A stretch of 64,000 nucleotides of DNA. It comes from Ornithinimicrobium sp. CNJ-824 (GTDB lineage: Bacteria; Actinomycetota; Actinomycetes; Actinomycetales; Dermatophilaceae). Position numbers and translations under genes: made by a program. This document shows, one piece after another, positions 34,815 to 57,535 of the stretch (position 1 is the stretch's first letter; every line of letters starts with the position of its first letter). Under the pieces are notes generated by a model. It searched no databases, was not told the DNA's origin, and was given only the letters and a program-made list of their open reading frames with translations. Location: contig NZ_MKKA01000012.1 of NCBI RefSeq assembly GCF_001942405.1, forward strand, positions 1-64,000, written 5' to 3'.

Positions 34815-34930
34815 ACGTCATCTCCTCTGGTCGGTCCCATCTCCTTCGGACCTGTCCCGAGCTCCCCGAGCGGCCCACGACCCGAGTATGGTCTGGATCA
34901 CAGTCGCTGTCACCCATCCGGAGGTGGACC

Positions 34931-37301: not shown

Positions 37302-37954
37302 GTGTCCTCCTGGGTCTGCCCGTCCTGGGCGTGGTGCGGGTCGGGCTGCTCGGGCACCGGCAACCGGGGTATGCCGTCCTCGCCCACCTGGAGCCCGTGG
37401 TCGTCGAGGACCTGCTCGTCCAGGTGCTCGGGCCGGACCCCGGTCTCGTCGACGAGGCGGTCCGGCCGGGTGGTGGTGCCGAACCGGGTCAGCAGCACCT
37501 CACGCTGGCGGCGAGCGTGGTCAGGATCGGCCCGGTGGACGGCGTCGTAGGCGTGGTCCACGGTCAGGCCCAGCAGGTCGAGGTCGTCGACGAGGGCCAG
37601 CAGCGGCGGGTGCTCCCCCTCGACGGCGTGCCCCGCCGCGAACCGGGACGGCAGGCGCAGGTGCGCGCCGACGGACTCCACCACCCAGGTGACCGCGCGG
37701 GCGACCGTGTCGCGGGCGAGCAGATCCAGGTCGTCGACGGGTCCGGTGGTGCGCGCCCCGGCCGGACGGCCGGAGATGTCCTCGTCCAGGAGCTCCAGCA
37801 GGTCGGCGGCGGCCCCGAGCACCCGGCGCACCCGGACCGTGACCGAGTCGTGGAGGGGAGGACCTGTCAGCAGGGGCTCCTGCTCGGCGACGGTGCGCCG
37901 CAGTGCCTCGACGGAGGGGACGTCGAGGAGGGCGGGGTCGGGCGCGTCGGGCAT
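37298..37954 (-). CDS. conserved helical protein (satellite module)
   Basis: This is a 218-residue, largely helical protein, a paralogue of the 55667-56275 protein; compare LALVDDLDLLGLTVDHAYDAVHRAD here with MVLVDQLDLLGLTMDRVFDAVYRDD there. The last 50 residues, rich in Asp, Gln and Pro, are not shared. ATG 37954 is preferred over GTG 37957. It heads a three-gene operon with overlapping stops and starts (coiled coil, then FHA). I do not recognise a named domain. Confidence 0.78.
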   Translation of the reverse strand: MPDAPDPALLDVPSVEALRRTVAEQEPLLTGPPLHDSVTVRVRRVLGAAADLLELLDEDISGRPAGARTTGPVDDLDLLARDTVARAVTWVVESVGAHLRLPSRFAAGHAVEGEHPPLLALVDDLDLLGLTVDHAYDAVHRADPDHARRQREVLLTRFGTTTRPDRLVDETGVRPEHLDEQVLDDHGLQVGEDGIPRLPVPEQPDPHHAQDGQTQEDT

Positions 37955-38023
37955 CACGGGTCCTGGGTCGAGGTCACGGTCGTGTCATTCTGCCCACCCC
38001 CTGGGATGGTGGCTACTCGACGG

Positions 38024-42667: not shown

Positions 42668-43496
42668 TCAGCGACGGTCGTCGTCGGTGCCCTGGTCCGG
42701 GGAGGTGCCGGGGGGCGGCGGCGCGGCCCACGGGTTGTCGGTGGACCCCTGCGACGGCGGCTGCTGCCCCGGGGTGCCCCACTGCTGGTTCCCGTCGGCG
42801 GACCCGGGCTGGCCGTAGCCCTGCTGCCCGTAGCCGGAACCTTGCTGGCCGTACCCGGGGGAGGGCGGTGCGCCATACCCCTGGCCCTGGCCGTAGCCGG
42901 AGGAGGTGCTGTAGCCGTAGCCGCCGGGGCCGTTCGTGGCCTTCTTGTCGCGGCTACGCCCGACCAGCCACAGGATCAGGCCGATCAGGGTCAGGAAGCC
43001 GAAGCCGAGGAGCGCGAGCAGGCCCAGGCCGGCGGCGAGCACGCCCATGGCCGAGGAGGCGCTCAGCTCGGGGGTGAGCTGCGCGGGGGCGTCGCAGGTG
43101 ATGGTGTGGTCGCCGCTCTGCACGGCGGTGAAGGAACCCACGAGCTGGACCTGGGCGTCCCCGAGGTCCGAGAACGCCGCGTCCTGGGTGACCGCCACGT
43201 CCGAGCCGTCGGGGGCGGTCACGGTGCAGGTCGGCTCCTGCCCGCCCTCGGTGAGGATCATCCGGGAGCCGCCCTGGCTCATCGGCACGGTGGTGTCGCC
43301 GGAGACCGTGATGGTGTCGTCCATCATGTTCTGCGCGACGCGGACCGTCTGGGTCGTGCCCCACACCACCGCGATCAGGGAGAGGACGGACAGGACGAGT
43401 CCGACGAAGAACATGATCTTGCCGGCCTTGGTCATCCCGCTGCTGCGGCGGGGGAGGGACTGGCCGGGCCCGTACGGATTGGGTGCGGTGCTCACA
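42668..43496 (-). CDS. two-helix membrane protein with Gly/Tyr/Gln-rich tail
   Basis: This is a 275-residue protein from GTG 43496. One helix lies at about 26-46, an extracytoplasmic domain of about 105 residues has two Cys (TCTVTAP and HTITCDAP), a second helix lies at about 150-175, and the tail has GYGQ-type repeats ending PPPPGTSPDQG. The 44604-45565 protein has the same plan and similar domain text (VPMSQGG against VPLSQGD; GSFTAVQSGDHTITCDAP against GSFRADSSGEHTIDCSG), so the two are paralogues. Function is unknown. Confidence 0.75.
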
Positions 43497-43549
43497 GGCC
43501 CCACGGTATGCCGTCGGGCGCATCTCGCGCAGGTTGACATGCCCGGGGC

Positions 43550-43635
43550 AGCACTCCTGTCCGGTTCTTGACGCGGCCCTGGACGCTTCCGCAGGTCGCG
43601 GAGGAGGGGTCGGTCAAGAACCGGACGAGAGTGCT
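43550..43635. repeat. 23-bp imperfect inverted repeat around a 40-base spacer
   Basis: AGCACTCCTGTCCGGTTCTTGAC (43550-43572, shown in part as AGCACTC then GTCCGGTTCTTGAC) is matched in inverse orientation at 43613-43635 with two mismatches; 14 bases next to the spacer are perfect. A short inner hairpin TCCGC-AGGTC-GCGGA lies in the spacer. It fills the 143-base gap between the SGNH hydrolase stop and the start of the two-helix protein gene. Confidence 0.75.
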
Positions 43636-43639
43636 TCCG

Positions 43640-44473
43640 TCACTCCACGGGCAACCCGAGGGCCTCCAGGAAGGCGTCGCCCATGACCTCGTAGCCGGCG
43701 TCCTTGGGGTGGATGTCGCGGGCCGCGCACATCCAGGTCAGGAGGCAGATGGCTTGGTCGTCGGAACCGAACGCGGCCGCTACCTCGGCGACGTCAACGT
43801 TCCACATCAGCGCCGCAGTCTCGATGTGCTGGTTCAACGATGCTGCTGGAAGTGCGGTCATGGCCGCCAGTGCTTCGTCGATGACGAACGGGTTGTAGTA
43901 GGTGTTGATCGCGATGTCGGCCTCGGGGGAGGCGGCGCGCAGGCGGTCGAGGATCAACGGCAGGTTGGTCCCCACGCTCCCCAGTCCGTCGTCGATGCAC
44001 TGCTGCAGGTCGATGGTTGGATCCCCCAAGTACGCCGAGACGCACCCCGCCACGTCGTTGGCGCCGATGTCGATCGTCACCGTCGACACCTTGTCCTTGT
44101 GGGCCCTGAGGAACTGCTCGGCCGCGTCGAGCTGGCTGCCGTGGGGGTAGGAGCACCGCCCGCCGTCGATCATCGTGTCCGACGTCTCCCCGGAGCAGGC
44201 GAGGTTGACCAGCTTGGTCTTGGCGTAGTTGTCCCGCAGCCCGTCGAGCACGTGCCCGACGTAACCGCCGTCGAGGTCGTCACCCATCCCGGGCTGGTAG
44301 CCGGCGGCCAACGAGTCGCCGAGCGCGAGGTACCACTGCACGCTCCGGGACGAGGTGTCGGGACGTTCCTGAGGAGGCCCCTTGCCGTCCGGCGGACCGG
44401 CGACCGCGGGGAGCGCGGCGAGCGGCACGGCGAGGGTCAGGGCTGCGGCGGCGGTCGCCATCCTGCGGAACAT
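43640..44473 (-). CDS. secreted SGNH/GDSL hydrolase
   Basis: This is a 277-residue exported esterase/lipase-like enzyme with a signal peptide (about 1-26, ending AVAG). The four SGNH blocks are visible: ALGDSLAAGY (catalytic Ser), NLACSGETS, IGANDV and DIHPKDAGY (catalytic Asp/His). Paired Cys in each block suggest disulphides, as in Streptomyces-type SGNH lipases. ATG 44473 follows GAGGAGG. Base use looks slightly less GC-rich than in its neighbours. The substrate is unknown. Confidence 0.92.
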   Translation of the reverse strand: MFRRMATAAAALTLAVPLAALPAVAGPPDGKGPPQERPDTSSRSVQWYLALGDSLAAGYQPGMGDDLDGGYVGHVLDGLRDNYAKTKLVNLACSGETSDTMIDGGRCSYPHGSQLDAAEQFLRAHKDKVSTVTIDIGANDVAGCVSAYLGDPTIDLQQCIDDGLGSVGTNLPLILDRLRAASPEADIAINTYYNPFVIDEALAAMTALPAASLNQHIETAALMWNVDVAEVAAAFGSDDQAICLLTWMCAARDIHPKDAGYEVMGDAFLEALGLPVE

Positions 44474-44603
44474 GGGTCCTCCTCTGAGAAGGACCACCGG
44501 CGCGACGGTGCGCCGATGGCGCTGAGAGCCATGATGCCGCCGTTGGGCCGTCCAGGGAAGACCCCGGACGAATCCGGGGGAGGGGCGACCGCCGGGGTCC
44601 GGG

Positions 44604-45565
44604 TCAGCGGTAGGTGTCCCGCCGCTCCGTGCCGCCGTCATCCCCGTCGACGGTGGGATCGTGCACGACCTCGCCGTCCTCGTCGACGAAGACCAGGCGC
44701 CCGACTCCACGAGCTGGGCGATCTCCTCGTCCGACAGCGCGGCCAGCTCCTCGTCGGTCAGGTCGACGTAGTCGTCCTCGGTGACCACGTCGAAGTCCAC
44801 CGGGCCGGCGGCCTCCGGGACGTCGGCGGCGACGTCGCCGGGGCCCTCCACGCCGTCGGGCACCGCCGCGGGGCTCGCGGTCTCCTCCTCCCACCACTCG
44901 TCGGCACCCTCCGAGGGTGGCTGGGCAGACACGTCGAGGTCCTGCCCGTCGTCGTCCTCCTCGTCGGTGCCGTGCCGCACGACGAGCAGAAGGACGCCGC
45001 CGATGAGCGCCAGCGTGGCACCGCCGAAGACCCCGAGGCTGCCGAGCATGAGACCGCCCACCCGCAACAGGCCGTCGGCCGGGCTCACCTCGGGGGCGAC
45101 GACCACGCCGAGGCCCGAGCAGTCGATCGTGTGCTCCCCCGAGGAGTCCGCACGGAACGATCCGACGACCTGGAAGCGGGCCAGCGGGTTGTCCACGCCG
45201 ACGCGCTGGCCCTCGTCGGACAGGTGCGCGACCGGCACCTCGCCCTCGGGCCCGTCCACCGTGCAGCGGATGTCCTCGACCGGCGTGGGCACGATCTCAC
45301 CGGGCGCGACCAGCCCGCCCGTGACGTAGAGGCTGCGCTGGTCGCCCTGGGACAGCGGCACCGCGGCGGTCCCGTCGAGCAGCTCGGCCGAGTTGTCGCG
45401 CAGGTTCTTCACCAGGTTTCTCGTGGCCAGGCCGGCCACGAGGGTGACGACCAGGGAGACGAGCAGCAGGACGACACCCACACGGGTCATGGCGCGGCCC
45501 GACCGGCGCAGCCGCCCGCGGCTCGAGGGCGCGTGGCTGGACCTGTCGGACTGCGCGGTGGACAT
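44604..45565 (-). CDS. two-helix membrane protein with acidic tail, one frameshift
   Basis: ATG 45565 has a TAGAGT box right upstream and may be leaderless. One helix lies at about 24-47, an extracytoplasmic domain (about 50-145) has two Cys (DIRCTVDGP and HTIDCSG), a second helix lies at about 155-180, and then a strongly acidic cytoplasmic tail (VDLTDEELAALSDEEIAQLVESG). One lost base near 44702 separates this from the end RLVFVDEDGEVVHDPTVDG; restored length is 320. It is a paralogue of the 42668-43496 protein. It lies 58 bases downstream of the FHA gene that ends the large signalling cluster. Confidence 0.72.
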
Positions 45566-45622: not shown

Positions 45623-46714
45623 TCAGCCCCGACCCTGCTTCTCCGCGTCCGTCGCGTGCCGCAGCGCGAGCCGGGTCCAGGCGCCCACGAAGATCCGGTC
45701 GTCGCGGTCGATCTCCACCCGCTGGCCGGGGGTCAGGGGTGCGGTCGGCAGCGGCTCGCCGACGGTGCCGACGAACGTGCCGTTGCTGCTGCCCAGGTCC
45801 TCGATCCACCACCGCTGGCCGTCGCTGCTCAGCTGGGCGTGCCGCCTGGACACCGCGCTGTCCCCGCCGGCGTCGATCTCCGGGCGCGCGGCCAGGCTGC
45901 TGGACGGACGGCCGACGAGCGCGTTGCTGCGCGTCAGCAGGACCACGTCCGGGATTCCGGCGCTCGGGCAGGTCTCGTCGGTCTGCTGCACGGCGTACCA
46001 GTCGGGGTCCACCCAGACCTCGACGACCCACGCGTCCGCGAGCTCCCGGGAGGGAGGGGTATGCCGTGGCGCCCGGTGCGCCCGCGGTGCGGGCTCCGCG
46101 GGACTCGGCTCGGGCTCGGGCTCGGGCTCGGGCGTGACCTCGGCCTCAGGGCCGGGGGCGGCCTCCTGTGCGGGCTCGGGGTCGGGCTGGTGCTCGGGAC
46201 TCGGCTCCGGCTCGGGCTCGGGGTCCGGCTCCGGCTCGACCGGCTCGACCGGCTCGACCTCGACCTGGGCCTCGTGCTCGTCCCCGGCCTCCTCCTGCTC
46301 GTCTGCCGGCTCCTCCGGCTCGCCCGCCTCCGCCCCACCCTCGGGCGGCCTGCCGTCCTCCGGCTCCGAACTCTCCGGTCCGGTCCGGTCGACCTCCGGG
46401 GCAGGACTGTCCATCGGCGGCGTCCCGGTCGTGAAGTCGTAGCCGCACGCCTCGCAGAACAGCGCCTCCTCGACGTTGGTCGCCCCGCAGTGCGGACAGG
46501 TGATCGTCGCGGGGGCCGGGGACGAGGGGGCGGGCGCACCTGCGGAACCACCCGCCCCGGGGCCCGGCAGCGAGGGCCCGAGGTCGAGCCCGCTCCCGGC
46601 CGGGGCCGGCGCGGGCGGCATACCGGCACCGCCGGACGCGTCCATGGGGGTGCCGCAGACGTCGCAGTAGTCCAACGCCTCGCTGAGGTGCCCCTCGGGG
46701 CAGCGGGCGCTCAC
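45623..46714 (-). CDS. FHA-domain protein with two zinc ribbons
   Basis: This is a 363-residue protein. Two zinc ribbons lie at about 4-21 (CPEGHLSEALDYCDVCG) and 70-91 (CPHCGATNVEEALFCEACGYDF). A Pro/Glu-rich linker (about 100-225) contains EP repeats. The C-terminal FHA domain (about 255-363) has ALVGRPSSSL, VSRRHAQL and DLGSSNGTFV, so it should bind phosphothreonine. GTG 46714 overlaps the VWA stop (GTGA). It is the last gene of the cluster and a paralogue of 35388-36206, with an extra ribbon. It is a candidate substrate or reader of the PknG-like kinase, as OdhI/GarA are for PknG. Confidence 0.9.
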   Translation of the reverse strand: MSARCPEGHLSEALDYCDVCGTPMDASGGAGMPPAPAPAGSGLDLGPSLPGPGAGGSAGAPAPSSPAPATITCPHCGATNVEEALFCEACGYDFTTGTPPMDSPAPEVDRTGPESSEPEDGRPPEGGAEAGEPEEPADEQEEAGDEHEAQVEVEPVEPVEPEPDPEPEPEPSPEHQPDPEPAQEAAPGPEAEVTPEPEPEPEPSPAEPAPRAHRAPRHTPPSRELADAWVVEVWVDPDWYAVQQTDETCPSAGIPDVVLLTRSNALVGRPSSSLAARPEIDAGGDSAVSRRHAQLSSDGQRWWIEDLGSSNGTFVGTVGEPLPTAPLTPGQRVEIDRDDRIFVGAWTRLALRHATDAEKQGRG

Positions 46715-47997
46715 GAAGGCCGCACCCTCGTGGTCTTCGTCGAGGCGGTGTCCAGCTCCATCTCGTCCAGGCGGTCCACGTTGCGCCGCAGCCGGACCCG
46801 TCCGGTGGCGGCATCCTCGATGTCCACCACCCGCGCCAGGCGGGAGGTGGCCGCCTCGTCCCCGGTCTGCCGGGCCAGCTGCACGGCCCGCCCCAGCTTG
46901 GACGTCGCGGTCGTGTCGTCGCCGATCGCCTTGGCGCGCAACCCTTCCTGGATCGCCGAGGCCAGCTCGGTCTGCCCGGTGTAGTGCGCGACCTCGGGGC
47001 TGATCTGGGCGGTGAGCAGGCTGTCGTCGGACCACCTGGCCTTGACCAGCCCCTGGGCCCGGACCTCGCCGGCGACGGCGAGCTGGACCCGGGCGGCGAG
47101 CTGCTCCTGACCGAGCGCGCGCGGCGCCAGCCGGACGGCAACGTGGTAGTCCCGCGTCTCGTCGCCCCACGCCCCCGTGTCGTAGGCCCCCGTCAGCGCG
47201 TTGACCTCCCGCCGCCGCCCGGTGAGGTCCTCCAGGGTCGGGGCCACCTGCTTGACGAAGAGGATCTGCGCGCCCTGCGGGGCCCACACCCGCAGCTCGG
47301 CGTCGCTGACGCCCCGGCCCATCGACTGCTGCATGAGGCGGGCGAAGTCCTCCGGCAGGCCGTCCCACGTGCGGATCAGCTCGACGGTGCCCATGAGCGC
47401 CTCGGCGATCCGGCGCACCTCCTCGACCTGCCAGGCGGCGCCGAGCCCGCGGCAGTCGGCCTGGTAGCGGCCCCGCACCTGCTCGATGGCCCAGCTCAGC
47501 TCCTGGGGGGTCTCGTGCTGGTTGGCCCCGTCGGTGAGCAGGATCGCGTGGCGCTTGGTCAGCGTCGGCACGGTCCCGAACAGCTGGGCCGCCGCCAGCA
47601 GCCAGCGGCCCATCGCGGTGCCGCCCCCGGGCACCAGCCGCTGGAGGGAGCGCTTGGCCTCCAGCCGCGACTGGGCCGACATCCGCACCATCGAGGCGGT
47701 CCCCGTCGTGGGGTAGCACAGCGCGGCCTCGTGGTTGCCCGCGACGATCGCGAACCAGACCCCGTCGACGATCTGGTCCAGCGCGGCGGACGCGGCGTAG
47801 GCCGCCGCCTGCACGCCCTGCACGTCCATCGACCCGGAGACGTCGACGATGATGATCTCGCCGGCCTCCCCGGACCCGCTGCTCATCGGTGCCACCGTGC
47901 CGGCCCCGGTGCAGGTCACCGAGACGATGGCGTGCACGTCGGTCCCGCCGTCGGGCAGGTGCTCGTTCTGGTGGACGGTCGCCGTGAACTCAGCCAT
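46711..47997 (-). CDS. VWA-domain protein (TerY-like)
   Basis: This is a 428-residue cytoplasmic protein. The VWA domain (about 40-210) has a complete metal site: DVSGSMD, the Thr in GGGTAMGRWL and LLTDGANQHE. A beta-rich part (about 215-330) and a TPR-like helical end (AIQEGLRAKAIGDDTTATSKLGRAVQLA) follow. ATG 47997 (MAEF) is preferred over 48006, as related proteins begin this way; it overlaps the PP2C gene by eight bases. VWA proteins beside a kinase and PP2C make up the TerY-P triad. Confidence 0.9.
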   Translation of the reverse strand: MAEFTATVHQNEHLPDGGTDVHAIVSVTCTGAGTVAPMSSGSGEAGEIIIVDVSGSMDVQGVQAAAYAASAALDQIVDGVWFAIVAGNHEAALCYPTTGTASMVRMSAQSRLEAKRSLQRLVPGGGTAMGRWLLAAAQLFGTVPTLTKRHAILLTDGANQHETPQELSWAIEQVRGRYQADCRGLGAAWQVEEVRRIAEALMGTVELIRTWDGLPEDFARLMQQSMGRGVSDAELRVWAPQGAQILFVKQVAPTLEDLTGRRREVNALTGAYDTGAWGDETRDYHVAVRLAPRALGQEQLAARVQLAVAGEVRAQGLVKARWSDDSLLTAQISPEVAHYTGQTELASAIQEGLRAKAIGDDTTATSKLGRAVQLARQTGDEAATSRLARVVDIEDAATGRVRLRRNVDRLDEMELDTASTKTTRVRPS

Positions 47998-49144
47998 GGG
48001 TCCCATCCTGCCCCGTCGGCGTGCGCACGAGCGCGACGGTGATGTTGTCGGCGCCGCCCCGCTCGTTGGCCCAGTCGACCAGCGCCTGCGCCAGGGCGAG
48101 GGGGTCGGGGGAGGAGGAGGTATGCGGTGCCTCGCCCCCGTCCGCCTCGGGCCGGGCGAGGGTGTGGACGACCTCCCGGAGGGCCCGCGGCTCGGAGGCG
48201 TAGTTCCACAGCCCGTCCGAGCACAGCAGCAGCCAGCCGGGCGTCGTGACGTCCTGGGTGGTGACCACCGGCGTGTGGTCGGGGGAGTCGGGGCCCAGCC
48301 AGCGGGTGATGGTGTGGGCCATCGGGCCGGCCTCGGCGGTCTGTCGGTCGATGCCGGCCTGGACCTGCTCCTCGGCCATCGAGTCGTCGGTGGTCAGCCG
48401 GCGGGGCTCGCCGGAGTCCGGCAGCCAGTAGGCCCGGCTGTCGCCCACTGAGCCGACCGTCGCGGTGCCGTCCTGGACGAGGGCGGCGACGTAGGTGCAC
48501 GACGGCGCCGACTCTGGGAAGTCGCGGCCCACCTGCTCGACCGCCTCCGCGGCCGCGTCGGTGGCGGCGACGATCCGCTCGGCCGGGGCCAGGGCGTCGT
48601 CGACGAGCACCTCCAGCGCCGCGTCGGCGGCCGCCATGCTGGCCTCCGCGCTGCGGGTCGCGGTGGTCACGCCGTCGCAGACGACCAGGGCCGCCCGGCC
48701 CGTGCCGTCGGCCCAGACGGCCATCGCGTCCTCGTTGTCCTCGTGCCGGATCCCCCGGTCGCAGACGGCGGCGACGTGGTCGTCCGGCCGGGCGCTGAAG
48801 TGGTGCCGCGGGTCCGGCCGGCGCGACCCGCACTCGGTGCACCAGCCGTCCTCGTCGTAGGCGCCGCCGCACACCGCGCAGGTCCCGTGGTCCGGGGCCT
48901 GCTCGTCGGCGGGGGCGGGGTGCTCGGGCAGCGTCCCGTCGAGGACGAGCATCGGCTCAGGCAGGGGAGGAGGGCCGTCGGAGAAGGGCTCGGGCTCCTC
49001 GGCCTCGGGTTCTTCCGCCTCGGCCGGGTCGGTTCGGGGTCCGGCGGCGTCGGGCTCGGCAGCCTCGACCGGGTCGGCCTCCTGCCGGTCGGCCGGCTCG
49101 GGCAGGCCGTCCGGAGGCGGGGGGACGGGAGGGGTCGTCGTCAT
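47990..49144 (-). CDS. PP2C-family Ser/Thr protein phosphatase
   Basis: This is a 384-residue protein. After a Pro/Glu/Asp-rich start, a small zinc ribbon (CAVCGGAYDEDGWCTECG, about 89-106) precedes the PP2C domain (about 115-380). Metal-binding and catalytic motifs are RHEDNEDA, VVCDGVTT, GSVGDSRAYW, LLCSDGLWNY and GGADNITVAL. ATG 49144 overlaps the kinase stop (ATGA), so kinase and phosphatase are made together. It is expected to reverse phosphorylation by the kinase. Confidence 0.93.
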   Translation of the reverse strand: MTTTPPVPPPPDGLPEPADRQEADPVEAAEPDAAGPRTDPAEAEEPEAEEPEPFSDGPPPLPEPMLVLDGTLPEHPAPADEQAPDHGTCAVCGGAYDEDGWCTECGSRRPDPRHHFSARPDDHVAAVCDRGIRHEDNEDAMAVWADGTGRAALVVCDGVTTATRSAEASMAAADAALEVLVDDALAPAERIVAATDAAAEAVEQVGRDFPESAPSCTYVAALVQDGTATVGSVGDSRAYWLPDSGEPRRLTTDDSMAEEQVQAGIDRQTAEAGPMAHTITRWLGPDSPDHTPVVTTQDVTTPGWLLLCSDGLWNYASEPRALREVVHTLARPEADGGEAPHTSSSPDPLALAQALVDWANERGGADNITVALVRTPTGQDGTHG

Positions 49145-51539
49145 GTCCAGCTCCAGGGTCGGACGGCGTTGGCCCGGTCGATGAGGGCCGCGCGCTCGGC
49201 GGGGTCGGGGGTGTAGTCGGCCAGGAAGCGGTACTCCTGCTCCAGCGCCCGGCGGAGCGCGTCGCGGGTCAGGCGCACCTCGCCCAGGCGCCAGTCCGGC
49301 CGTTCGCCGTGCTCGCGCACCTGCTCCAGGGCCTGCTCGTAGACGCCGGCGGAGAAGTGGGCCCGCTGCCGGGGGTCCAGGGTCAGCCGGGAGACCGAGT
49401 GGACCGACTCGCGCAGGTCGGCCAGCCCGCCCCGGCGGCGGAGCAGCTCGGCGCGCAGCCAGCGGGCCCGGGGGTGCGCCCGGCTGCCGGGCGGGACGGA
49501 GTCGAGGGCCGTGATGGCCCCGTCGACGTCCCCGCGGCCCAGCCGCACCCGGTAGAGCCCGAAGGCGGCGGGCGCGACGTACGCCGCGTCCGTGCGCCAC
49601 GCCCGGTCGTAGTCGAGCTCGGCCGCCTTGGCGTAGCCCCCGATCTCGCTGGCCAGCGCCAGCGCCAGCCGCGGCGCGATCTCGCCGGGGAGGGCGTCGC
49701 GCACGACCGCCAGGTGGCTGGCGGCGGCGTGGCCCGCGGCGCGGTCTGCGTCGTGGTCGGTCGGCTGCGCGGTCCCGACCCGGCTCAGCGCCCACAGGCC
49801 CCGCATCCAGGAGGCCCGCCAGTCCCAGGGGTCCTCCGCCAGCAGGCCCCGGACGGCGTCCTCCACCCACGTCTGCTGGCCGACCCGGATGCCCGCCCGG
49901 GCCTGGGCGAGCAGCACCTCGGGGGTGCGCTCGGAGGCTCCCTGCAGGGCGGCGTGCAGCGCCACGGGGTCCGAGGTGGGCAGGTTGGCGACCCAGTCCA
50001 GCATCGGGTCGGCGTCGTCGTGCTTGAGCTCGGGCAGCTCCCACCAGGCGAGGGTCTCGGTCGTCGACACCGGCGGGTCGAAGACCGGGGAGTGCGAGGA
50101 CAGCGTCGCCGGGTGGTCCGACCCCGCGGCCACGACCTGCCGCAGCACGCCGACCATCTGGGTGCGCAGGTCCTCGACGGTGAGGAAGCGGTCGTTGGGG
50201 TCGGGGGCGCAGCAGCGGGCCACCAGCCGGTAGAACGCGTCGTGCTCGACGAACGGCGGCACCTGCGACATCGGGGGGAGGGAGTCGACGTACTCGCTCT
50301 GGTAGCCGCGGAACTCGAAGGTCAGCACCGCCAGCGTGCGGCCCACCGTGTAGATGTCGGAGGCGACCGACGGGCCCACCTCGGCGACCTCGGGCGCTGG
50401 TAGCCGACCGTGCCGTAGATCGGCGACTCCAGGTCGTCCTGCCGCCGCACGCCGCCGAGGTCGATGAGCTTGACGCCGTCGCCCTCCTGGATGAGGTTGT
50501 CCGGCTTGAAGTCGCAGTAGAGCAGCCCCAGGTCGTGCAGGTGGGTGAAGGCGGGGAGCACCTCGAGAACGTAGGCCAGCGCCTGCTCGACGGGGAAGGC
50601 GTCGTAGCGCCCGGCCGCCTGCATCCGGGCCTTGAGCATCTGCTTCAGGCTCGTGCCGCCGACGTGCTCCATCACGGTGTAGGCGTCGCCCTCGTGGGTG
50701 ACGACGTTGTAGATCTCGACGATGAGCGGGTGCTTGACCTGCGCCAGGAACTGCTGCTCGGCGACCGCGGCGTCCAGGGCGTCGGCGTCGCCGGTGTTGA
50801 GCAGGCCCTTGAGCACGACCCACCGGTCGGAGACGTTGCGGTCGCGGGCCAGGTAGATCCAGCCCATCCCGCCGTGCGCCAGTGCCCCGGCGACCTCGTA
50901 CTGCCCGGCCACGAGGTCGCCCGGGCCCAGCTTGGGGGTGAAGGAGTAGGGCGCGCCGCACTGCGGGCAGAAGCCCTGCTGCCGGCCGGTGCCCTCGCCC
51001 AGCGCCCGCCCGACGCTGGCGCCGCAGTTGGGGCAGACGCGCCGGTCCTCGGGGACCTCCGGGTCGACCATGACGGCGTCCAGAGGGTCCCCCGGGGGCA
51101 CCGGCGGGACCTGGGTCAGGCCCATGCCCAGCCGGGACCGACGTCCGGACGCCGCGCGCTGCCGGCGGACCCGGGCCGCGCGGACGGCCTGGCGGGTCTG
51201 GCCGGGGGCCGGGGTGGCGACCTGGTGGGCGCTCGAACCCTCCGCCGGCGCCTCGGCCGACGGGCTCCCCACCGCCCCGTCGCCTGCCGCCGACCCGCTG
51301 CCGGACGCCGACCCGTCGCCCCCCGCGGAGGCGCCGTCGCCGTCGGACCCGGACGGCCCGGCTGCCGAGGGACCCGCCCCGACCCCGGCGCCGGCCGGGC
51401 CGAGCGAGGGGTCCCCGTGGACGTGCCCGGTCGCGCCGGCCCCGCCGGTCGGCACCTGCGTGGGCTCGGGCGACCCGCAGACGTTGCACCAGCCGTCCTC
51501 GTAGGTCCCCGGGCAGCCCGGCTCGACGCACCTGGTCAC
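49141..51539 (-). CDS. PknG-like Ser/Thr protein kinase with TPR tail, one frameshift
   Basis: GTG 51539. The order is: short Cys motif (CVEPGCPGTYEDGWCNVCG), low-complexity linker (about 30-115), rubredoxin-like zinc site (CPNCGAS and CPQCGAPYSF), kinase domain (about 205-480), TPR-rich end (about 540-799). Kinase motifs are AHGGMGWIYLARD, VVLKGLL (Lys) and YCDFKPDNL in place of HRD. One G lost near 50396 (CAG[G]CGCCC) breaks GYQAPEVAEVGPSVASDIYTVGR; 2399 bases plus one give 799 residues. The layout and the end RANAVRPWSW match mycobacterial PknG, which regulates 2-oxoglutarate metabolism through FHA proteins. Confidence 0.92.
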
Positions 51540-51585
51540 CGCGCCTCCGTCCGTCCGCCGGCCGCCGGCGCCACGTCGTGGGGCC

Positions 51586-52710
51586 TCACGGCTGGACCCC
51601 CATCGTCCGGACCAGCGTCTCCTGCGCCTGCACCATCGCCTCCAGCCTCGTCAGGTCGGTGGGGGTCCGGGCCAGCAGCGCCTGCGCCTGCTCGGCCAGC
51701 CCGGCGCTCGCCGCCGCGCCCTGCTCGTCGGCGTCCAGCGCCGCGTGCACCCGCTCGGCCCGCCCGGCGAGGTCCTCCCGCCGCTCCAACGCGGCGGCGT
51801 AGGCCTGCTGGGCCAGGGTGAGCGCGCGGTCCACCCGCTCCAGCCGGGTCAGGTATGCCGTGAGCTCCTGGGGATCGCCCGGCACCGGTCCGAGCTGGGC
51901 CACGTCGGGCACACCGAGCGTCGGGGCGGGGGTGACCAGGGTCCGGGCCCGCTCCGCGAGGGCCCGGACCGCGTCGCCGCGGGCGGCCAGCTCGGCCACC
52001 AGCTGCGAGGCGCGGGCGTGATCGACCCGGGCGTGCGCGCGCTGGGAGGCGGCGACGATGAGGTCGCGCTCGGTCGTGGCCGCCTCCACCTCCAGGGGCC
52101 CGAGGAAGCCGCCGACGTCGCCGCCGCGCCGGGCCCGCCCGGTGACCTCCTCCAGCCGACGGTCCAGCGCGTCGTAGGCCTGCTGCGCCGAGGCCCGGCG
52201 GCTCTCCGGCACGAGGGCGACCTGGTCGGCGATCCGCTCCACCTGCTGGCGCAGGTCGTGCAGGCGGTCGGTGACGGTCGGGTCCGCGCCGTCGAGGCGC
52301 AGGCGCATCCGCAGCGCGGAGGCCAGGGAGTCCGAGAGCCGGCAGGCCTCGGGCAGCGAGACCGCCAGGGACTGTCCGCCGGCGCGCTGTCCGGGCTGCT
52401 CCAGCGACCCCCAGACCAGGGTCGTGATCCGGCGGCGCTCACCCTCCCCGACCCGGCCGGAGTCCCAGGTGGCCAGGATGAGGCCAAGTCGGTCGGAGAC
52501 GGCCTGCCACAACGTCATCGACAGCGTCACGTCAGGGGTCACGGCCGCCCGGTCCTGCGGGTCGGTCAGGTCCATCGAGGCGCGGTCGAGGGCGTCGAGC
52601 TCGACCTTGCGCCGGTCCTTCCAGGTGATCAGGTCGTCCAGGTAGCGCAGCAGCTCCCGGGGGTCGACGTCGGTGCCGAGCGCCCCGGGTGCGGGGGGGC
52701 GCCACGGCAT
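51586..52710 (-). CDS. helical coiled-coil protein, cluster component
   Basis: This is a 374-residue, almost all-helical protein with no membrane segment. Shared blocks with the 36203-37301 protein are LSMTLWQAVSDRLGLILATWD (about 62-82), VTPAPTLGVPDVAQLG and ELTAYLTRLERVDRAL. The repeated heptads suggest a coiled-coil scaffold. It lies between the GlnX-like sensor and the kinase gene, where mycobacteria and corynebacteria have GlnH. ATG 52710 overlaps a copy of the GGTATGCC-type word. Function is unknown. Confidence 0.75.
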   Translation of the reverse strand: MPWRPPAPGALGTDVDPRELLRYLDDLITWKDRRKVELDALDRASMDLTDPQDRAAVTPDVTLSMTLWQAVSDRLGLILATWDSGRVGEGERRRITTLVWGSLEQPGQRAGGQSLAVSLPEACRLSDSLASALRMRLRLDGADPTVTDRLHDLRQQVERIADQVALVPESRRASAQQAYDALDRRLEEVTGRARRGGDVGGFLGPLEVEAATTERDLIVAASQRAHARVDHARASQLVAELAARGDAVRALAERARTLVTPAPTLGVPDVAQLGPVPGDPQELTAYLTRLERVDRALTLAQQAYAAALERREDLAGRAERVHAALDADEQGAAASAGLAEQAQALLARTPTDLTRLEAMVQAQETLVRTMGVQP

Positions 52711-52728
52711 ACCTGCTCGTGGCGGGGC

Positions 52729-54057
52729 TCACCGGTAGTCCTGCAGACGACGGGTGATCCCGGCCCACGCCAGGCCGGCGGCGGACAGGCCCAGCAGCAG
52801 GGCCAGGCCGGAGCTGACGACGGCCGGCAGCCCGACGCGGGAGGCCGCGGCGTCCAGGCGGCCGTCCAGCCGCTCGGAGAGCTCGGCGTCCAGCCCGGCG
52901 TAGGCCTCCTGCGTCCCGGCGAGGACCTCCGCGGCCGCGGCGGGGTCGGGCGCGCCGGCGACGTCCTCCTGGGTGGCGGAGATCTGCTGCCAGGTGTCCG
53001 ACAGCTCCTGGTCGTCGAGCGTGGCCAGGGCCTGCGTGGCGTCCGTGCCGTCGGTGCCGAAGCTGCCGGGGGTGCCGAGCACGGGGGCGTACTGCGCCGC
53101 CCTGGCCTCCCGGACCTGCTGCAGGGCGTTCGCCACCTCGGCGGTGCCGCTGACCTGGCCGTCGACGCTGACCGGGACGGCAGCGGGGTTGAGCGAGACG
53201 TAGGCCAGCCAGCCCGTCATCGCGGTGGCGACCAGCAGGGGGACGTTGACGATCCGCCGCGTGCGCAGCGCCAGCCAGACGAGCACGCCGAGCATGAGGA
53301 GGGTCGCGAGGGTCCCGACGACCCCGGTGAGGACCGACCGGGAGCCGGTGGCCAGGTCCTCGGCGTGCGTGGCCGCCGTGGCGTCGCTGGCGTCGCCGGC
53401 GGTGCGCAGCAGGGTGCGGGCCGCGGTCAGGTCCTCGGCCACCGTGCCGCCCCCGGCGGCACCGTCCGCCGCAGCGTCGGCGGCGGGGGCCGCGAGCGTC
53501 CGACCGACGAGGACGGCCGCCTCGGCGATCTCGGCCGCGGTCTCGCTGCTGCGGCCCGGGTCGCCGCCGGAGCGGGCGTGCGCCCCGGCCGCGACCCCCA
53601 GCGCCTCGACGGGGTCCCCGGAGGTCTCGGCCGGCGCGCTGCCGGTGGCCCGGGCGGCGGCCTGCTCGGTGGCCCGCAGCTCGGCCTCGGCCAGTCCGAC
53701 GCCCGTGCGCTCGGCCGCGGTCCACTGGGCGGCGATGACGTTGGGGGTGCTGTTGACGCCCCCGGTGTCGAAGGTGCCCGTGGCCACGATCCCGGTGAGC
53801 AGGGCCGCGGCCGCCGTCACGCCGCGGGCCAGCCGGAGCAGACGGGGGGTCGAGGAGGTCGGGTGCCCCTGGGTGCCCTTCCCTGCGGTCTGCGGCTGGG
53901 CGCCCTTGCCCGGGGCCGGCTGCTGGCCTGCCTGCCCCTGCGCGGGCTTGGCCTGGGCAGCCTGCTGCCGGGCGGGCGTGGCGGCGGAGGCGGCGGTGGC
54001 GGCCCCTCCCGACGTCGCGGGCGTCCCCCCTGACGTCGCCGGCGTCGGCGTGCTCAC
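52729..54057 (-). CDS. four-helix membrane protein, GlnX-like sensor
   Basis: This is a 442-residue protein from GTG 54057, overlapping the AAA+ stop. Residues 1-72 are Ala/Gly/Gln-rich. Helices lie at about 76-96, 238-260, 266-286 and 410-432, leaving two extracytoplasmic domains (about 97-235 and 288-408) that look helical, as in four-helix-bundle sensors. This topology and the nearby pknG gene recall GlnX of mycobacteria and corynebacteria, which passes an amino-acid signal to PknG. Sequence-level kinship with GlnX is inferred, not shown. Confidence 0.6.
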   Translation of the reverse strand: MSTPTPATSGGTPATSGGAATAASAATPARQQAAQAKPAQGQAGQQPAPGKGAQPQTAGKGTQGHPTSSTPRLLRLARGVTAAAALLTGIVATGTFDTGGVNSTPNVIAAQWTAAERTGVGLAEAELRATEQAAARATGSAPAETSGDPVEALGVAAGAHARSGGDPGRSSETAAEIAEAAVLVGRTLAAPAADAAADGAAGGGTVAEDLTAARTLLRTAGDASDATAATHAEDLATGSRSVLTGVVGTLATLLMLGVLVWLALRTRRIVNVPLLVATAMTGWLAYVSLNPAAVPVSVDGQVSGTAEVANALQQVREARAAQYAPVLGTPGSFGTDGTDATQALATLDDQELSDTWQQISATQEDVAGAPDPAAAAEVLAGTQEAYAGLDAELSERLDGRLDAAASRVGLPAVVSSGLALLLGLSAAGLAWAGITRRLQDYR

Positions 54058-55670
54058 GAGGAGGCCTCCATGTCCTCGGAACCGTTCCCGTCGTCCTCGT
54101 CGCCGTCCCCGACCTCCACGGACAGGTCCACCCCGTCGCGGTCCTCGAAGTCCTGCCGCCGCAGCGTGCGCAGCTCCTCGACGTCGACGTCCTCGGTGTC
54201 CCGCAGCCGCCAGGCGTGCCGGCCGATCGCGGCCTCGAGCATGTTGCGGGCGAAGCGTCCGTTGCCGAAGCTCGGCCCCCGCGGCGTGGCGGCCAGCATC
54301 TCGCGGAACCGCTCCTGCGCCTCCGGGTCGACGTCGTAGTCCATCTTCTCGGCGAGCACGAGCAGGATCCCGGTGAGCTCGTCGTCGGTGTAGTCGTCGA
54401 ACTCGATGATCGTGCGGAACCGGCTCTCCAGGCCCGGGTTCATCCCGATGAACTCGGCCATCGGCGCCGGGTAGCCGGCGACGATGACGACCAGCTCGTC
54501 GCGGTGGTCCTCCATCTCCTTGACGAGGGTGTCGACGGCCTCCTTGCCGTACTGGTCCCCGCCCAGGCTGTACGCCTCGTCGATGAACAGCACCCCGCCC
54601 AGCGCCGACGCCACCACCTCGGCGGTCTTGGCGGCGGTCTGGCCCAGGTAGCCGGCGACCAGCTCGGAGCGGTCGACCTCGACGAGCTGCCCCTTGTCGA
54701 GCAGCCCCAGCGCCCGGTAGATGCCGCCGACCAGCCGCGCCACCGTCGTCTTGCCGGTGCCCGGGTTGCCGACGAAGACCAGGTGCCGGGTCAGCGTGGC
54801 GACCTTGAGGCCGGCCTCCTGACGGCGCGCGTCCATCTTCAGCAGGGCCACCTGCCGGTGGATCTCGGCCTTGACCCGCTCCAGCCCGATCAGCTCGTCG
54901 AGCTCTGCGAGCAGCTCCTCGACCGACCGCTGCGGGGGAGCGGGCTCGGGCGGCGGCCCGGCCTCCGCGGGCTCCTCCTGGGTGGCGGCGGCAGTGGGTT
55001 CCGGGGGGTATGCCGTGCCCGCCGGCGGCGTCCACGACGTCGGCGGGGCGGGCGGCAGCTGGCCGCCCGGGCCGCCGGCCTGGCCGAACCGGCCCATCTC
55101 GTCCAGCATCTGGCGGACCCGGCCGGACTGCTCCTGGGCACGCTCGAGCAGCTCCCGGGCCCAGGTGCGCTGGTCGGTGCCGTCCGGCCCGGCACCCTGG
55201 TGCGAGGCCGGTGCGTAGCCCTCGAGCGGGTCCGCGGCCGGCGGACGCCGCCCGGCGCGGGGGTGCCCCTGCACCCCGGCCGCGGCCAGCTGGGTCCGGG
55301 CCGCGGTGATCGCCTGACCCACCGTGGTCGCGTCCGACCCGGGCAGCGCGCTCGCCGCGGTGGCCACGTCGGCCAGCGCGACGGCATACCCCTGCGCGTG
55401 CGGGCTCGACTCGGCCAGGAGCGTCTGCAGCAGCGGCGTGGGGACGGCGCGGTAGCGGCGGCCGTGCGGGGCGGTGCCGAAGTAGTCGCTGGCGGGCAGG
55501 GCGAAGGCCTCCCCCCAGGTGCGGGCGATCCGGGCCGAGCCCACGCTGCGCTCCATGACCGCCGCGGCCAGGGCGACCCCCTCGGCGCGGGCGGACCCCT
55601 CCTCCAGGCCGGCCTGCTCGCCGACCCGGGCCAGGGTGTCGACGGCCTCGCGCAGCGGCGACGTGGTCAT
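54054..55670 (-). CDS. CbbX/SpoVK-type AAA+ ATPase
   Basis: This is a 538-residue protein. The first 270 residues are helical with a Pro-rich linker. The AAA+ domain (about 280-500) has Walker A GNPGTGKTTVA, Walker B GGVLFIDEAYSL, sensor 1 region VVIVAGYP and the arginine finger in NPGLESRFR. It belongs to the branch of CbbX, SpoVK and EccA, which remodel protein complexes. The acidic tail (GDEDDGNGSED) is probably flexible. ATG 55670 overlaps the stop of the small helical gene (ATGA). It may remodel a complex of the kinase, TelA or the scaffold proteins. Confidence 0.9.
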   Translation of the reverse strand: MTTSPLREAVDTLARVGEQAGLEEGSARAEGVALAAAVMERSVGSARIARTWGEAFALPASDYFGTAPHGRRYRAVPTPLLQTLLAESSPHAQGYAVALADVATAASALPGSDATTVGQAITAARTQLAAAGVQGHPRAGRRPPAADPLEGYAPASHQGAGPDGTDQRTWARELLERAQEQSGRVRQMLDEMGRFGQAGGPGGQLPPAPPTSWTPPAGTAYPPEPTAAATQEEPAEAGPPPEPAPPQRSVEELLAELDELIGLERVKAEIHRQVALLKMDARRQEAGLKVATLTRHLVFVGNPGTGKTTVARLVGGIYRALGLLDKGQLVEVDRSELVAGYLGQTAAKTAEVVASALGGVLFIDEAYSLGGDQYGKEAVDTLVKEMEDHRDELVVIVAGYPAPMAEFIGMNPGLESRFRTIIEFDDYTDDELTGILLVLAEKMDYDVDPEAQERFREMLAATPRGPSFGNGRFARNMLEAAIGRHAWRLRDTEDVDVEELRTLRRQDFEDRDGVDLSVEVGDGDEDDGNGSEDMEASS

Positions 55671-56275
55671 GAGGTCCTTCCCTCGGGCGGGGTCAGCGGG
55701 TCGACAGCGTCGTCGTCGGCAGACTCCTCCGACGGCTGCTCCGGGACCGGCGCGTGGTCGTCGGCCCCGATCCGCAACGACCCGCCCCCGGCCGACCCGC
55801 CGAACTTCTCGGCGATGAACCGGCCCTGGGCGACCAGCTCGCGGGCGTCGTCGCGGTAGACCGCGTCGAAGACCCGGTCCATCGTCAGCCCGAGCAGGTC
55901 GAGCTGGTCGACGAGGACCATGAGCGAGGTCTTGGCGCCGTCGACGGGGCGGGTGTCGGCGTACCGCCGGGGGAGGCGCTGGTAGGCGCCGATCGCCTCG
56001 GGCAGGTAGTCGGTGGCGGTCGCCACGACCGTGTAGCCCAGGCTGCTGCCGGAGATCCGACCCATCCGCGGCACGGTGTCCCGCACGGTGTCGACGACGC
56101 GCTGGGCCCGCGCGGTGACGACCGAGGGCAGCGCGGAGGAACCGAGCAGCTCCTCGGTGGTCGCGAGCGCCTGCTCGACGTCCTGCGCCGTCGGGGGCGC
56201 GGGCAGCTCGAGGCGGTCGTCGGCCGCCTCGGGCGCCCGGCCGAGCATCCGGTCGAGCAGGTCGGAGAACCCCAT
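55667..56275 (-). CDS. conserved helical protein, cluster component
   Basis: This is a 202-residue, largely helical soluble protein (MGFSDLLDRMLGR start, then SLMVLVDQLDLLGLTMDRVFDAVYRDDAREL). It is a paralogue of 37298-37954. It has no catalytic motif that I can see. It lies between TelA (15-base gap) and the AAA+ gene (ATGA overlap), so it is likely a structural partner of one of them. Confidence 0.8.
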   Translation of the reverse strand: MGFSDLLDRMLGRAPEAADDRLELPAPPTAQDVEQALATTEELLGSSALPSVVTARAQRVVDTVRDTVPRMGRISGSSLGYTVVATATDYLPEAIGAYQRLPRRYADTRPVDGAKTSLMVLVDQLDLLGLTMDRVFDAVYRDDARELVAQGRFIAEKFGGSAGGGSLRIGADDHAPVPEQPSEESADDDAVDPLTPPEGRTS

Positions 56276-56290
56276 GCCGTCCCCGCCCCG

Positions 56291-57535
56291 TCAGGACAGC
56301 CGGGTCGGCGGGGCGTCGCCCAGGTCGAGCTCGCCACCCACCAGCCGGGTGTCGGTGCGGCGGGAGCGGTCCAGGTAGCCCCGCGACTTGGACACCTCTC
56401 CCTCGAGCACGCCGATGGTCTGGGCCATCGAGTCCAGCGCCTGGGAGCGGAAGGCGTCGATCGCGTCCATCGTCTCGTAGATGTTGGCGAAGGCCGCCTG
56501 CAGCTGCTCCAGGCCCAGCGTCGAGGACGCCGCCTGCTCCTGGATCGCCACCGAGTTGTCCCGCAGCATCTCGCTGGTGCGCTGGATCATGTCGGAGGTC
56601 GTCTCGTTCAGCGCGGTGATCTGGTCGAGGACCAGCTTCTGGTTGTTCAGCGCCTGGGCCACGAGGACGGCGGTGCGCAGCGCCGACACGGTGGTCGTGG
56701 AGGCCCGGTCGACACCCTTGATGAGCTCGATGTTGTTCTTCATGATGATGTCGATCGCCAGGTAGTTCTGGATCGACACCGCCAGCTGGGTCAGCAGGTC
56801 CTGGTGCTTCTGCCGGACGTAGAAGAGCACGTCCTCGCGCATCGCCTTGGCCTTCTCGGGGTCGGTCTCCTCGAGCTGGGCGACGTGGGCGGCGACGCGG
56901 GCGTCGAGCTGCTCGGCGATGTAGACGTACTGGTTGAGCCGGCCCATGGAGTCCCACAGCTGCTGCTTCTCCATGTTCAGCGCGGCGTTGTCCTTGGCCA
57001 GCTCGTCCTGCCCGCTGCGCAGCGCGTGCAGGATGCCGTCGAGGTGCTTCTCGGCCGACTCGTACTTGCGGAAGTAGTCGCGCAGCCGGTCCCCGAACGG
57101 GATCATCCCCAGGAACTTCTTGGCGCCCTGGGCCTGCGCCGGGTCGAGGTCCTCGACGGTGCGGCGCAGCTCCATGAGGGTGCGGCCGACCTTGGACTCC
57201 TTGGAGACGCCGCCCTCCTGCAGGGCCCGCACCGGCGACTTGAGCAGCCGGTTGGAGGTCTCGGCCGCGGTGCGGATCTCGGCGTCGCCCATCGTGCGGA
57301 CGTCGGCGGCCTTGCGGGCGAACTCCGGCGACCGGGTCTCGGTCCGGGTCAGCCCCTGGACGAAGTCCTCGACCTTCTTGTCCAGCGCCGGGAGGGCCTG
57401 CGGGTCCACCTGAGGCGCCATGGCGGGCGCGGCGGTCTCGGCCACCGGCTGCGGCGGGGGCGGCGCGGTCAGCGTGAGCGGCTCCGGGGCGGCCAGGGGC
57501 TCGGGGGCCTGGAGCGGCTGCGGCTGGTCGGTCAT
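56291..57535 (-). CDS. TelA-family (toxic anion resistance) protein
   Basis: This is a 414-residue protein. After a Pro-rich start (about 1-50), an all-helical TelA domain fills the rest: MELRRTVEDLDPAQAQGAKKFLGMIPFGDRLRDYFRKYESAEKHLDGI (split over the conserved G-K-F-LG-IPFG loop), FYVRQKHQDLLTQLAVSIQNYLAI and NNQKLVLDQITALNETTSDMIQRTSEML. TelA proteins are linked to tellurite, envelope stress and antibiotic tolerance, with unknown chemistry. ATG 57535 follows GGAGGAGAG. It is the first gene of the nine-gene run. Confidence 0.93.
   Translation of the reverse strand: MTDQPQPLQAPEPLAAPEPLTLTAPPPPQPVAETAAPAMAPQVDPQALPALDKKVEDFVQGLTRTETRSPEFARKAADVRTMGDAEIRTAAETSNRLLKSPVRALQEGGVSKESKVGRTLMELRRTVEDLDPAQAQGAKKFLGMIPFGDRLRDYFRKYESAEKHLDGILHALRSGQDELAKDNAALNMEKQQLWDSMGRLNQYVYIAEQLDARVAAHVAQLEETDPEKAKAMREDVLFYVRQKHQDLLTQLAVSIQNYLAIDIIMKNNIELIKGVDRASTTTVSALRTAVLVAQALNNQKLVLDQITALNETTSDMIQRTSEMLRDNSVAIQEQAASSTLGLEQLQAAFANIYETMDAIDAFRSQALDSMAQTIGVLEGEVSKSRGYLDRSRRTDTRLVGGELDLGDAPPTRLS

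Follow-up and report, generated by a model that had tools for sequence, protein, structure and literature searches.

A conserved operon-like unit joins PknG and GlnX to PP2C, VWA, FHA and TelA genes in Ornithinimicrobium and related actinobacteria

Nine genes lie together on the minus strand of a contig of Ornithinimicrobium sp. CNJ-824, between positions 45,623 and 57,535 of the 64,000 nucleotides analysed here (NZ_MKKA01000012.1, positions 1 to 64,000; this whole stretch is called the window below). The first of them, as it is in relatives, encodes TelA of the toxic anion resistance family (56,291-57,535; PF05816, E 8.5e-95) and is adjoined by the gene of a small all-helical protein, SHP (55,667-56,275). 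Next come an AAA+ ATPase of the SpoVK/CbbX/EccA kind (54,054-55,670), a GlnX homologue of a divergent, GlnH-less type with four transmembrane (TM) helices and two extracytoplasmic domains (52,729-54,057) and a further all-helical protein, CC (51,586-52,732). The PknG-type Ser/Thr kinase (49,141-51,539) consists of an N-terminal zinc ribbon, a rubredoxin domain, the kinase domain and a TPR domain, and its gene is frame-broken in the window. A PP2C phosphatase with an N-terminal zinc ribbon (47,990-49,144), a VWA protein (VWA_3 plus VWA_3_C, with a MIDAS motif; 46,711-47,997) and an FHA protein, in which a zinc ribbon, an acidic linker and an FHA domain follow one another (45,623-46,714), complete the cluster. 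An initial annotation had named these nine genes and their families, and every one was recovered at that place and on that strand. Its statement that most of the gene ends overlap or nearly abut is also correct, as neighbouring ends mostly overlap by a few bases and otherwise lie within about 50 bases of each other. The open reading frame (ORF) of CC runs from 52,710, but the N-termini of relatives point to 52,732 as the probable start, with a frame discontinuity in a C-run between the two positions.

The GlnX and PknG homologues recall a described pathway, in which GlnH binds Asp or Glu and signals through GlnX to PknG (PMC6069109, PMC9769921). Against the NF058618 GlnX model, with its curated cut-off of 250, the window protein scores 28 bits (E 9.5e-7); when window-type and canonical GlnX are compared as profiles with hhalign (11 against 11 sequences), the probability of homology is 99.1% (E 1.7e-18), and the four TM segments are in place. 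The kinase combines the PknG rubredoxin domain (PF16919, 5.9e-28), a kinase domain (PF00069) and the C-terminal PknG_TPR domain (PF16918, 3.3e-45), split over two frames though they are in the window, and its nearest solved structure is a PknG (E 1.3e-79). This is the domain make-up that marks a PknG, the rubredoxin domain being part of it outside Corynebacteriaceae. The kinship with GlnX and PknG implied by the initial annotation is thereby upheld. The AAA+ protein shares its ATPase and lid domains with the CbbX/SpoVK/EccA family, and its nearest solved structures are CbbX and EccA1. It differs in having an N-terminal part of its own, 250 residues without Pfam domain coverage, and in falling under the cut-off of each named subfamily (TIGR02881 SpoVK, 7.6e-84; EccA, 3.2e-74; CbbX, 7.3e-67). 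CC has no Pfam match, SHP has Pfam matches only below cut-off, and neither matches NCBIfam. Predicted models of SHP and CC (predicted local distance difference test scores 84.7 and 81.6) gave no PDB match at E<=0.001 with Foldseek. In the libraries searched, then, neither SHP nor CC has a described relative, and the two are orphan families, as the initial annotation had supposed. A scan for promoters and terminators yielded no site resembling a promoter and a single terminator-like one, which is not above what shuffled sequence yields.

The distribution of the cluster was followed through 58 related genomes, 31 of them in the genus, which here means Ornithinimicrobium/Serinicoccus; the window genome is G000 of this set. 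The PknG_rubred domain occurs in 23 of the 58, including the window genome (19 of the 31 genus members and 4 of the 27 others). For TelA the number is 33 of the 58, and within the genus these are the 19 PknG carriers plus G022. The 31 genus genomes comprise, then, 19 with both PknG and TelA, 11 with neither and one with TelA only; for two of the 11, G008 and G019, genome completeness is no higher than 74-75%. The cluster is gained or lost as a block within the genus. Around PknG, the order and strand of the genes are kept in all 22 loci of relatives as far as each stretch reaches; all nine genes are found in 20 of these, and the other two run into contig ends (L029 starts at GlnX and L032 at VWA).

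Beyond the genus, a sample of 297 genomes from the order was searched with a CC profile; 33 gave a match, that of G518 being very weak. Four of the 33 were already covered or were the window's own; loci from 20 of the remaining 29 were examined. In 20 of these 20 loci from other genera of the order, the genes stand on one strand in the order TelA, SHP, AAA+, GlnX, GlnH, CC, PknG, PP2C, VWA and FHA, which is the order of the window with GlnH added between GlnX and CC. The initial annotation had staked its reading on a neighbourhood conserved across actinobacterial genomes, and such a neighbourhood exists. A scan of named genomes, in which the best 80 of 93 confirmed loci were counted, extended this to Ornithinimicrobium, Serinicoccus, Mobilicoccus, Austwickia, Agilicoccus, Phycicoccus, Pedococcus, Janibacter, Nostocoides, Nocardioides, Micropruina, Microlunatus and Pengzhenrongella, as well as metagenome-assembled genomes (MAGs). 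The gene order is broken in none of the 80, the sole departure being a second SHP-CC-FHA triad placed after FHA in L185. All nine families are present in 56 loci (35 with GlnH and 21 without) and GlnH in 48; 24 loci are incomplete, mostly through a contig or flank end. The fullest unit has ten genes and is probably ancestral. One record in this material, L182, is titled as an Acidobacteria MAG but agrees with the genus contig L029 (G004) in length (11,788) and in its CC sequence; it is probably a mislabelled MAG.

Parts of the unit are also found on their own. Eight loci from PknG-bearing genomes outside the order were examined. Three of them (L086-L088) hold GlnX, GlnH, PknG, PP2C, VWA and FHA together without TelA, SHP or AAA+, with GlnX-GlnH on the opposite strand in L086, and in all three a remote homologue of CC adjoins PknG (profile built from distinct loci; E 5e-9, 7e-9 and 3e-8). 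The other five, L089-L093, come from one family, which resembles mycobacteria in gene content, and have only GlnX-GlnH-PknG among the families of the unit. TelA and SHP, for their part, are paired in six genomes without PknG (G022, G033, G034, G042, G045 and G049), and G047 has TelA, SHP and AAA+ at a contig end. Because the core occurs without TelA, SHP and AAA+ while TelA-SHP pairs occur alone, the ten-gene unit looks like a seven-gene sensor-kinase core combined with a TelA-SHP-AAA+ block. A conserved operon-like unit thus joins the GlnX-GlnH-PknG cassette, the PP2C/VWA/FHA set, CC and the TelA-SHP-AAA+ set. The idea that two signalling themes had been joined specially in this genome has to be given up, as the seven core families stand together in the three loci outside the order and the TelA block is attached to the core over several families. 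In one genome without PknG, two consecutive SHP genes follow TelA (L077:4883-6194).

Zinc ribbons recur on the core proteins. PknG has an extra N-terminal ribbon ahead of its rubredoxin domain (approximately CxxPGCxG...[YW]CxxC) in 45 of 45 VWA-linked loci, doubled in some of them, and in none of the five loci with GlnX-GlnH-PknG only. In a larger set the ribbon is found in 104 of 105 rows, and the miss is the C-terminal piece of the window kinase, the N-terminal piece of which has it. All 45 loci likewise have a ribbon on the FHA protein, and a conservative pattern finds one on PP2C in no fewer than 31 of them. Since the PknG ribbon goes together with VWA, PP2C and FHA neighbours, the ribbons of PknG, PP2C and FHA suggest a shared docking role. 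Active-site and binding motifs are well kept. In the AAA+ protein, Walker A, Walker B and SRF are intact in all 101 rows, and the DxSxS of VWA is present in 92 of 93. PknG keeps D..P.N in 102 of 105 rows and DLG in 100 of 105, the misses including the C-terminal window piece and shortened rows and, for DLG, also L171, L172 and L197. The metal-site Asp columns of PP2C are N.D and DG (95/95), GDS (95/95), SDG (93/95) and DN (92/95), with gaps otherwise, and the FHA domain has its GR, SR and NGT columns in 89 of 89 rows and the His of SRxH in 73 of 89.

The VWA, PP2C and kinase genes had been taken in the initial annotation for the TerY-P triad of tellurium-linked stress systems. Their adjacency, and the zinc ribbon on the kinase, are indeed like that triad, and in a stress or defence switch of this sort VWA, PP2C and the zinc-ribbon kinase would sense metal and switch by phosphorylation, while TelA and the SpoVK-like AAA+ would be the effectors; the ribbons counted above and the description of SpoVK-family AAA+ genes beside VWA genes (PMC11090510) speak in its favour. 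It is nevertheless quite improbable here. By definition the TerY-P kinase has its zinc ribbon at the C-terminus (PMC11090510), whereas the kinase of the cluster is a PknG with its ribbons at the N-terminus and TPR at the C-terminus. VWA, TelA and FHA match no PADLOC model, in that defence library kinase, PP2C and AAA+ give partial matches to models that cover kinases, phosphatases and ATPases in general, and the plasmid collection searched contained zero copies of CC. With N-terminal ribbons where the definition asks for a C-terminal one, the cluster is not a TerY-P member by the published definition, although by analogy it may work alike.

The likeness to the PknG-GlnX-GlnH-OdhI/GarA pathway of Corynebacterium and Mycobacterium is closer in its parts: a kinase with rubredoxin and TPR domains, a four-TM GlnX, FHA partners and, in the fuller ten-gene unit, GlnH. 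The ten-gene unit differs in its seven further conserved genes and in the extra N-terminal zinc ribbon of PknG, and in the window lineage GlnH is lost and GlnX has diverged. By analogy the cluster would work like the PknG-GlnX-GlnH pathway, though the defining GlnH, a solute-binding lipoprotein, is found neither in the window cluster nor elsewhere in the window genome. A profile of PknG-type GlnH scores 369-458 bits in three cluster genomes outside the genus (G035, G050 and G052); in the PknG-bearing genus genomes its best match is partial, at 162 bits (161 in G000), and it has no match in G032. A later search covered 27 genomes: the 14 with GlnH in the cluster all scored 320-440 and the 13 without it all scored at most 181; four of these 13 overlap with the first search. 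As scores of at most 181 bits face 320-458 for PknG-linked GlnH, it appears that no PknG-type GlnH is encoded elsewhere in the GlnH-less genomes searched.

The absence of GlnH reported by the initial annotation is therefore real, but it is not the ground state. A tree of VWA proteins was made by a quick method from 94 rows, 91 of which could be assigned a GlnH state. It requires that state to have changed twice, once in a clade of Ornithinimicrobium with Austwickia, Mobilicoccus and Agilicoccus (26 rows, support 100) and once in a Micropruina/Propionibacteriaceae clade (6 rows, support 84). Because the outgroups have GlnH, both changes are read as losses, specific to their lineages. For L198 and L219, with less than 0.9 kb upstream of CC, the GlnH-less state rests on GlnX lying directly upstream. 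The tree groups genera for the most part and mixes some, with Nocardioides rows among Intrasporangiaceae, so some transfer of the cluster between genera is possible.

The slot of GlnH is not empty in the rest of the genus. All 18 same-genus clusters other than that of the window have there a four-TM protein, MP2, with an N-terminal helical stretch and a motif like PMLILGxDxPDVEDTT at its N-terminus (e.g. L043:5886-7265); multiple copies or fragments of it are seen in L031, L037, L039 and L044. GlnH and MP2 are both missing from the cluster in the window and in Austwickia (L034/L197). MP2 and GlnX have the same four-TM layout, and MP2 was considered as a GlnX paralogue; profile comparison gave 3% with canonical GlnX and 59% (E 9e-5) with divergent GlnX, which leaves the homology unproven.

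Loss of GlnH is accompanied by divergence of GlnX. Scored with a model of eight outgroup sequences alone, GlnX reaches 131-253 bits (median 195) in 66 loci with GlnH and 0-79 bits (median 19) in 41 loci without it, 123 loci having been reduced to 107 by removal of duplicates, and the two ranges do not overlap. The window GlnX is among those that score 0, which stands for no match in the vicinity of CC at E 0.01. For PknG over its full length, a model built from seven outgroup sequences gave 662-746 bits in 61 loci with GlnH (median 718) and 579-685 in 38 loci without (median 650). GlnX has diverged strongly in the GlnH-less loci, and PknG less so. The best-kept piece of GlnX is TM4 with the short C-terminal tail, at 27% consensus identity against 9-13% for the other segments; the termini of GlnX have been proposed as a peptide that binds TPR (PMC6069109), and the TPR domain of PknG as the docking site of GlnX (PMC8546545). 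Published GlnX is a four-TM protein with a pair of extracytoplasmic four-helix bundles (PMC9769921), and the discussion of that paper raises the point that it might bind ligands itself, in addition to those that GlnH delivers.

A second set of genes in the window bears on the organization of the unit. Between 35,388 and 37,957, also on the minus strand and absent from the initial annotation, lie paralogues of SHP (SHP2, 37,298-37,957; SHP model 8.5e-14), CC (CC2, 36,204-37,301; three frames in the window, one in seven relatives) and the zinc-ribbon/FHA protein (FHA2, 35,388-36,207; FHA model 7.3e-61), in the gene order of the main unit. The triad is found in seven relatives (G001, G003, G004, G016, G024, G027 and G015), of which G015 is without the main cluster. 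As it recurs apart from the main unit, and in one genome without that unit, SHP, CC and FHA form a sub-module.

The reading that we prefer, and to which we give an even chance, is a GlnX-PknG phospho-relay that acts through reader proteins and AAA+ on a TelA envelope-stress module; we infer both its input and its output. The extracytoplasmic four-helix domains of GlnX would take the input in place of Asp/Glu-loaded GlnH, either directly or together with the MP2 protein found in the rest of the genus. The signal would pass from the cytoplasmic tail of GlnX to the TPR domain of PknG, and the zinc ribbons of PknG, PP2C and FHA would keep these three together, probably with the VWA protein as their platform. 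The FHA protein, assisted by CC and SHP in an adaptor role, would relay the phospho-state to the AAA+ remodeller, which would assemble or disassemble TelA, the presumed envelope-stress effector, and PP2C would reset the switch. Beyond PknG every arrow is a proposal drawn from published work and gene anatomy, such as the recruitment of an FHA substrate by PknG through its autophosphorylated N-terminal segment (PMC8546545). For TelA, the proposal draws on the appearance of TelA-type genes in envelope-stress responses (PMC3498285, PMC12791056, PMC3139573): xpaC-yaaN belongs to the core sigma-W regulon (PMC3498285), telA1 is induced with an XpaC-like gene (PMC3139573), and a TelA mutant of L. monocytogenes is four-fold more susceptible to nisin, as reported in PMC12791056. 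The earlier suggestion that the membrane protein itself reads the signal is now well posed and may hold. A more specific version is put forward tentatively, as possible rather than probable. In it GlnX has become the primary sensor twice independently, after GlnH was discarded, its tandem four-helix domains having been rebuilt to respond to a new ligand or to a state of the envelope; in Ornithinimicrobium a four-TM partner was added. PknG, a kinase with classical ties to 2-oxoglutarate metabolism, would then drive a phospho-gated AAA+ acting on TelA through the SHP-CC-FHA triad, which is also found by itself.

Several observations weigh against the relay. Its output half rests on gene order. 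Divergence of GlnX in the GlnH-less clades could reflect relaxed selection instead of a new sensor; the PknG of these clades also scores somewhat lower, and the two GlnH losses are too few for a sign test. One locus, L210 of Phycicoccus elongatus Lp2, has no detected TelA or SHP despite 10 kb of upstream cover, L260 has no recognisable GlnX, and Gln replaces the His of SRxH in 16 of 89 FHA rows. The unit is like the xpaC-yaaN/telA pairs of Firmicutes in having TelA beside the gene of a small helical protein, and unlike them in that SHP lies downstream of TelA and the unit is joined to kinase genes. PF10112 (XpaC) has no match to SHP and profile comparison gave 5% (seven template rows, of which L263 duplicated L262), so SHP was rejected as an XpaC; since no homology is seen, the likeness is one of position only. 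PF10112 itself was found in one of the 58 relatives, and this was not the window genome, where XpaC does not stand beside TelA. The widespread OdhI/GarA homologue is a further point of this kind: a stand-alone form occurs in 57 of the 58 relatives and 24 of 24 further genomes, none above the curated cut-off, so metabolic control may still be a further output.

A rival reading would make the cluster an ordinary amino-acid-sensing PknG pathway, with OdhI/GarA and 2-oxoglutarate dehydrogenase as output, TelA, AAA+ and VWA as mere neighbours and another solute-binding protein in place of GlnH. PknG and GlnX, and GlnH in most loci outside the window clade, are genuine family members, the pathway is published (PMC9769921, PMC8546545, PMC6069109), the OdhI-like FHA gene is nearly universal among the genomes searched, and the genus has other solute-binding proteins that score up to 162 bits. 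We find it unlikely all the same, as the order of the unit is fixed over several families, the block is gained and lost together in the genus, and genus members that lack PknG carry OdhI just as the others do. In the window genome the OdhI/GarA homologue scores 175 bits (cut-off 200) and reads DPATAR at the N-terminal Thr motif, which in the substrate of the pathway is a TT site. This motif varies among genomes without following GlnH state; tried as a marker of rewiring, it gave no clean link and was discarded.

The last point against the phospho-relay comes from the window itself, where the kinase is not one open frame: its N-terminal part runs to about 50,388 and its C-terminal part starts at about 50,397 in a different frame. 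It could be argued that the GlnH-less clusters are decaying relics kept through linkage, given this break, the patchy distribution in the genus (19 of 31) and the divergence of GlnX. That is very improbable. The kinase is an open frame of 781-1,375 amino acids, with no stops, in the 22 other PknG loci, including all 18 same-genus relatives that carry it, and the catalytic and binding residues are retained. Further breaks in the window, at about 36,466, 36,920 and 40,503, fall in ORFs that are single frames in relatives (five relative loci compared). With the kinases of relatives open and other window ORFs broken alike, an error in the window sequence is likelier than a dead gene. Taken together, the four breaks suggest that the assembly contains indel errors.

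Natural GlnX and PknG proteins from genomes without GlnH make direct ligand binding by GlnX testable; because GlnX and PknG were kept while GlnH was lost, apparently twice, the suggestion in PMC9769921 can be addressed. In the passages cited, no description of a GlnH-less GlnX-PknG was seen, PMC6069109 being the sole paper searched for such wording. The mechanism of TelA is called unknown in PMC12791056, and the fixed gene order supplies TelA with candidate partners, namely a kinase, a phosphatase, a phospho-reader and an AAA+ remodeller. Among the matches listed in the open-access literature, none links TelA to PknG or GlnX, which is weak evidence of novelty, most subscription papers lying outside that scope. 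The SHP and CC families gain a conserved context.

Two observations concern the flanks. Downstream of the cluster, at 42,668-45,565, are two genes, for a TM protein and a GDSL lipase domain protein, which also trail the cluster in many members of the genus; a 641-residue frame within this interval of the window resembles a fusion of two proteins. Farther along, at 34,100-34,850, are short ORFs that we take to resemble an AIM24-type protein, apparently frame-broken.

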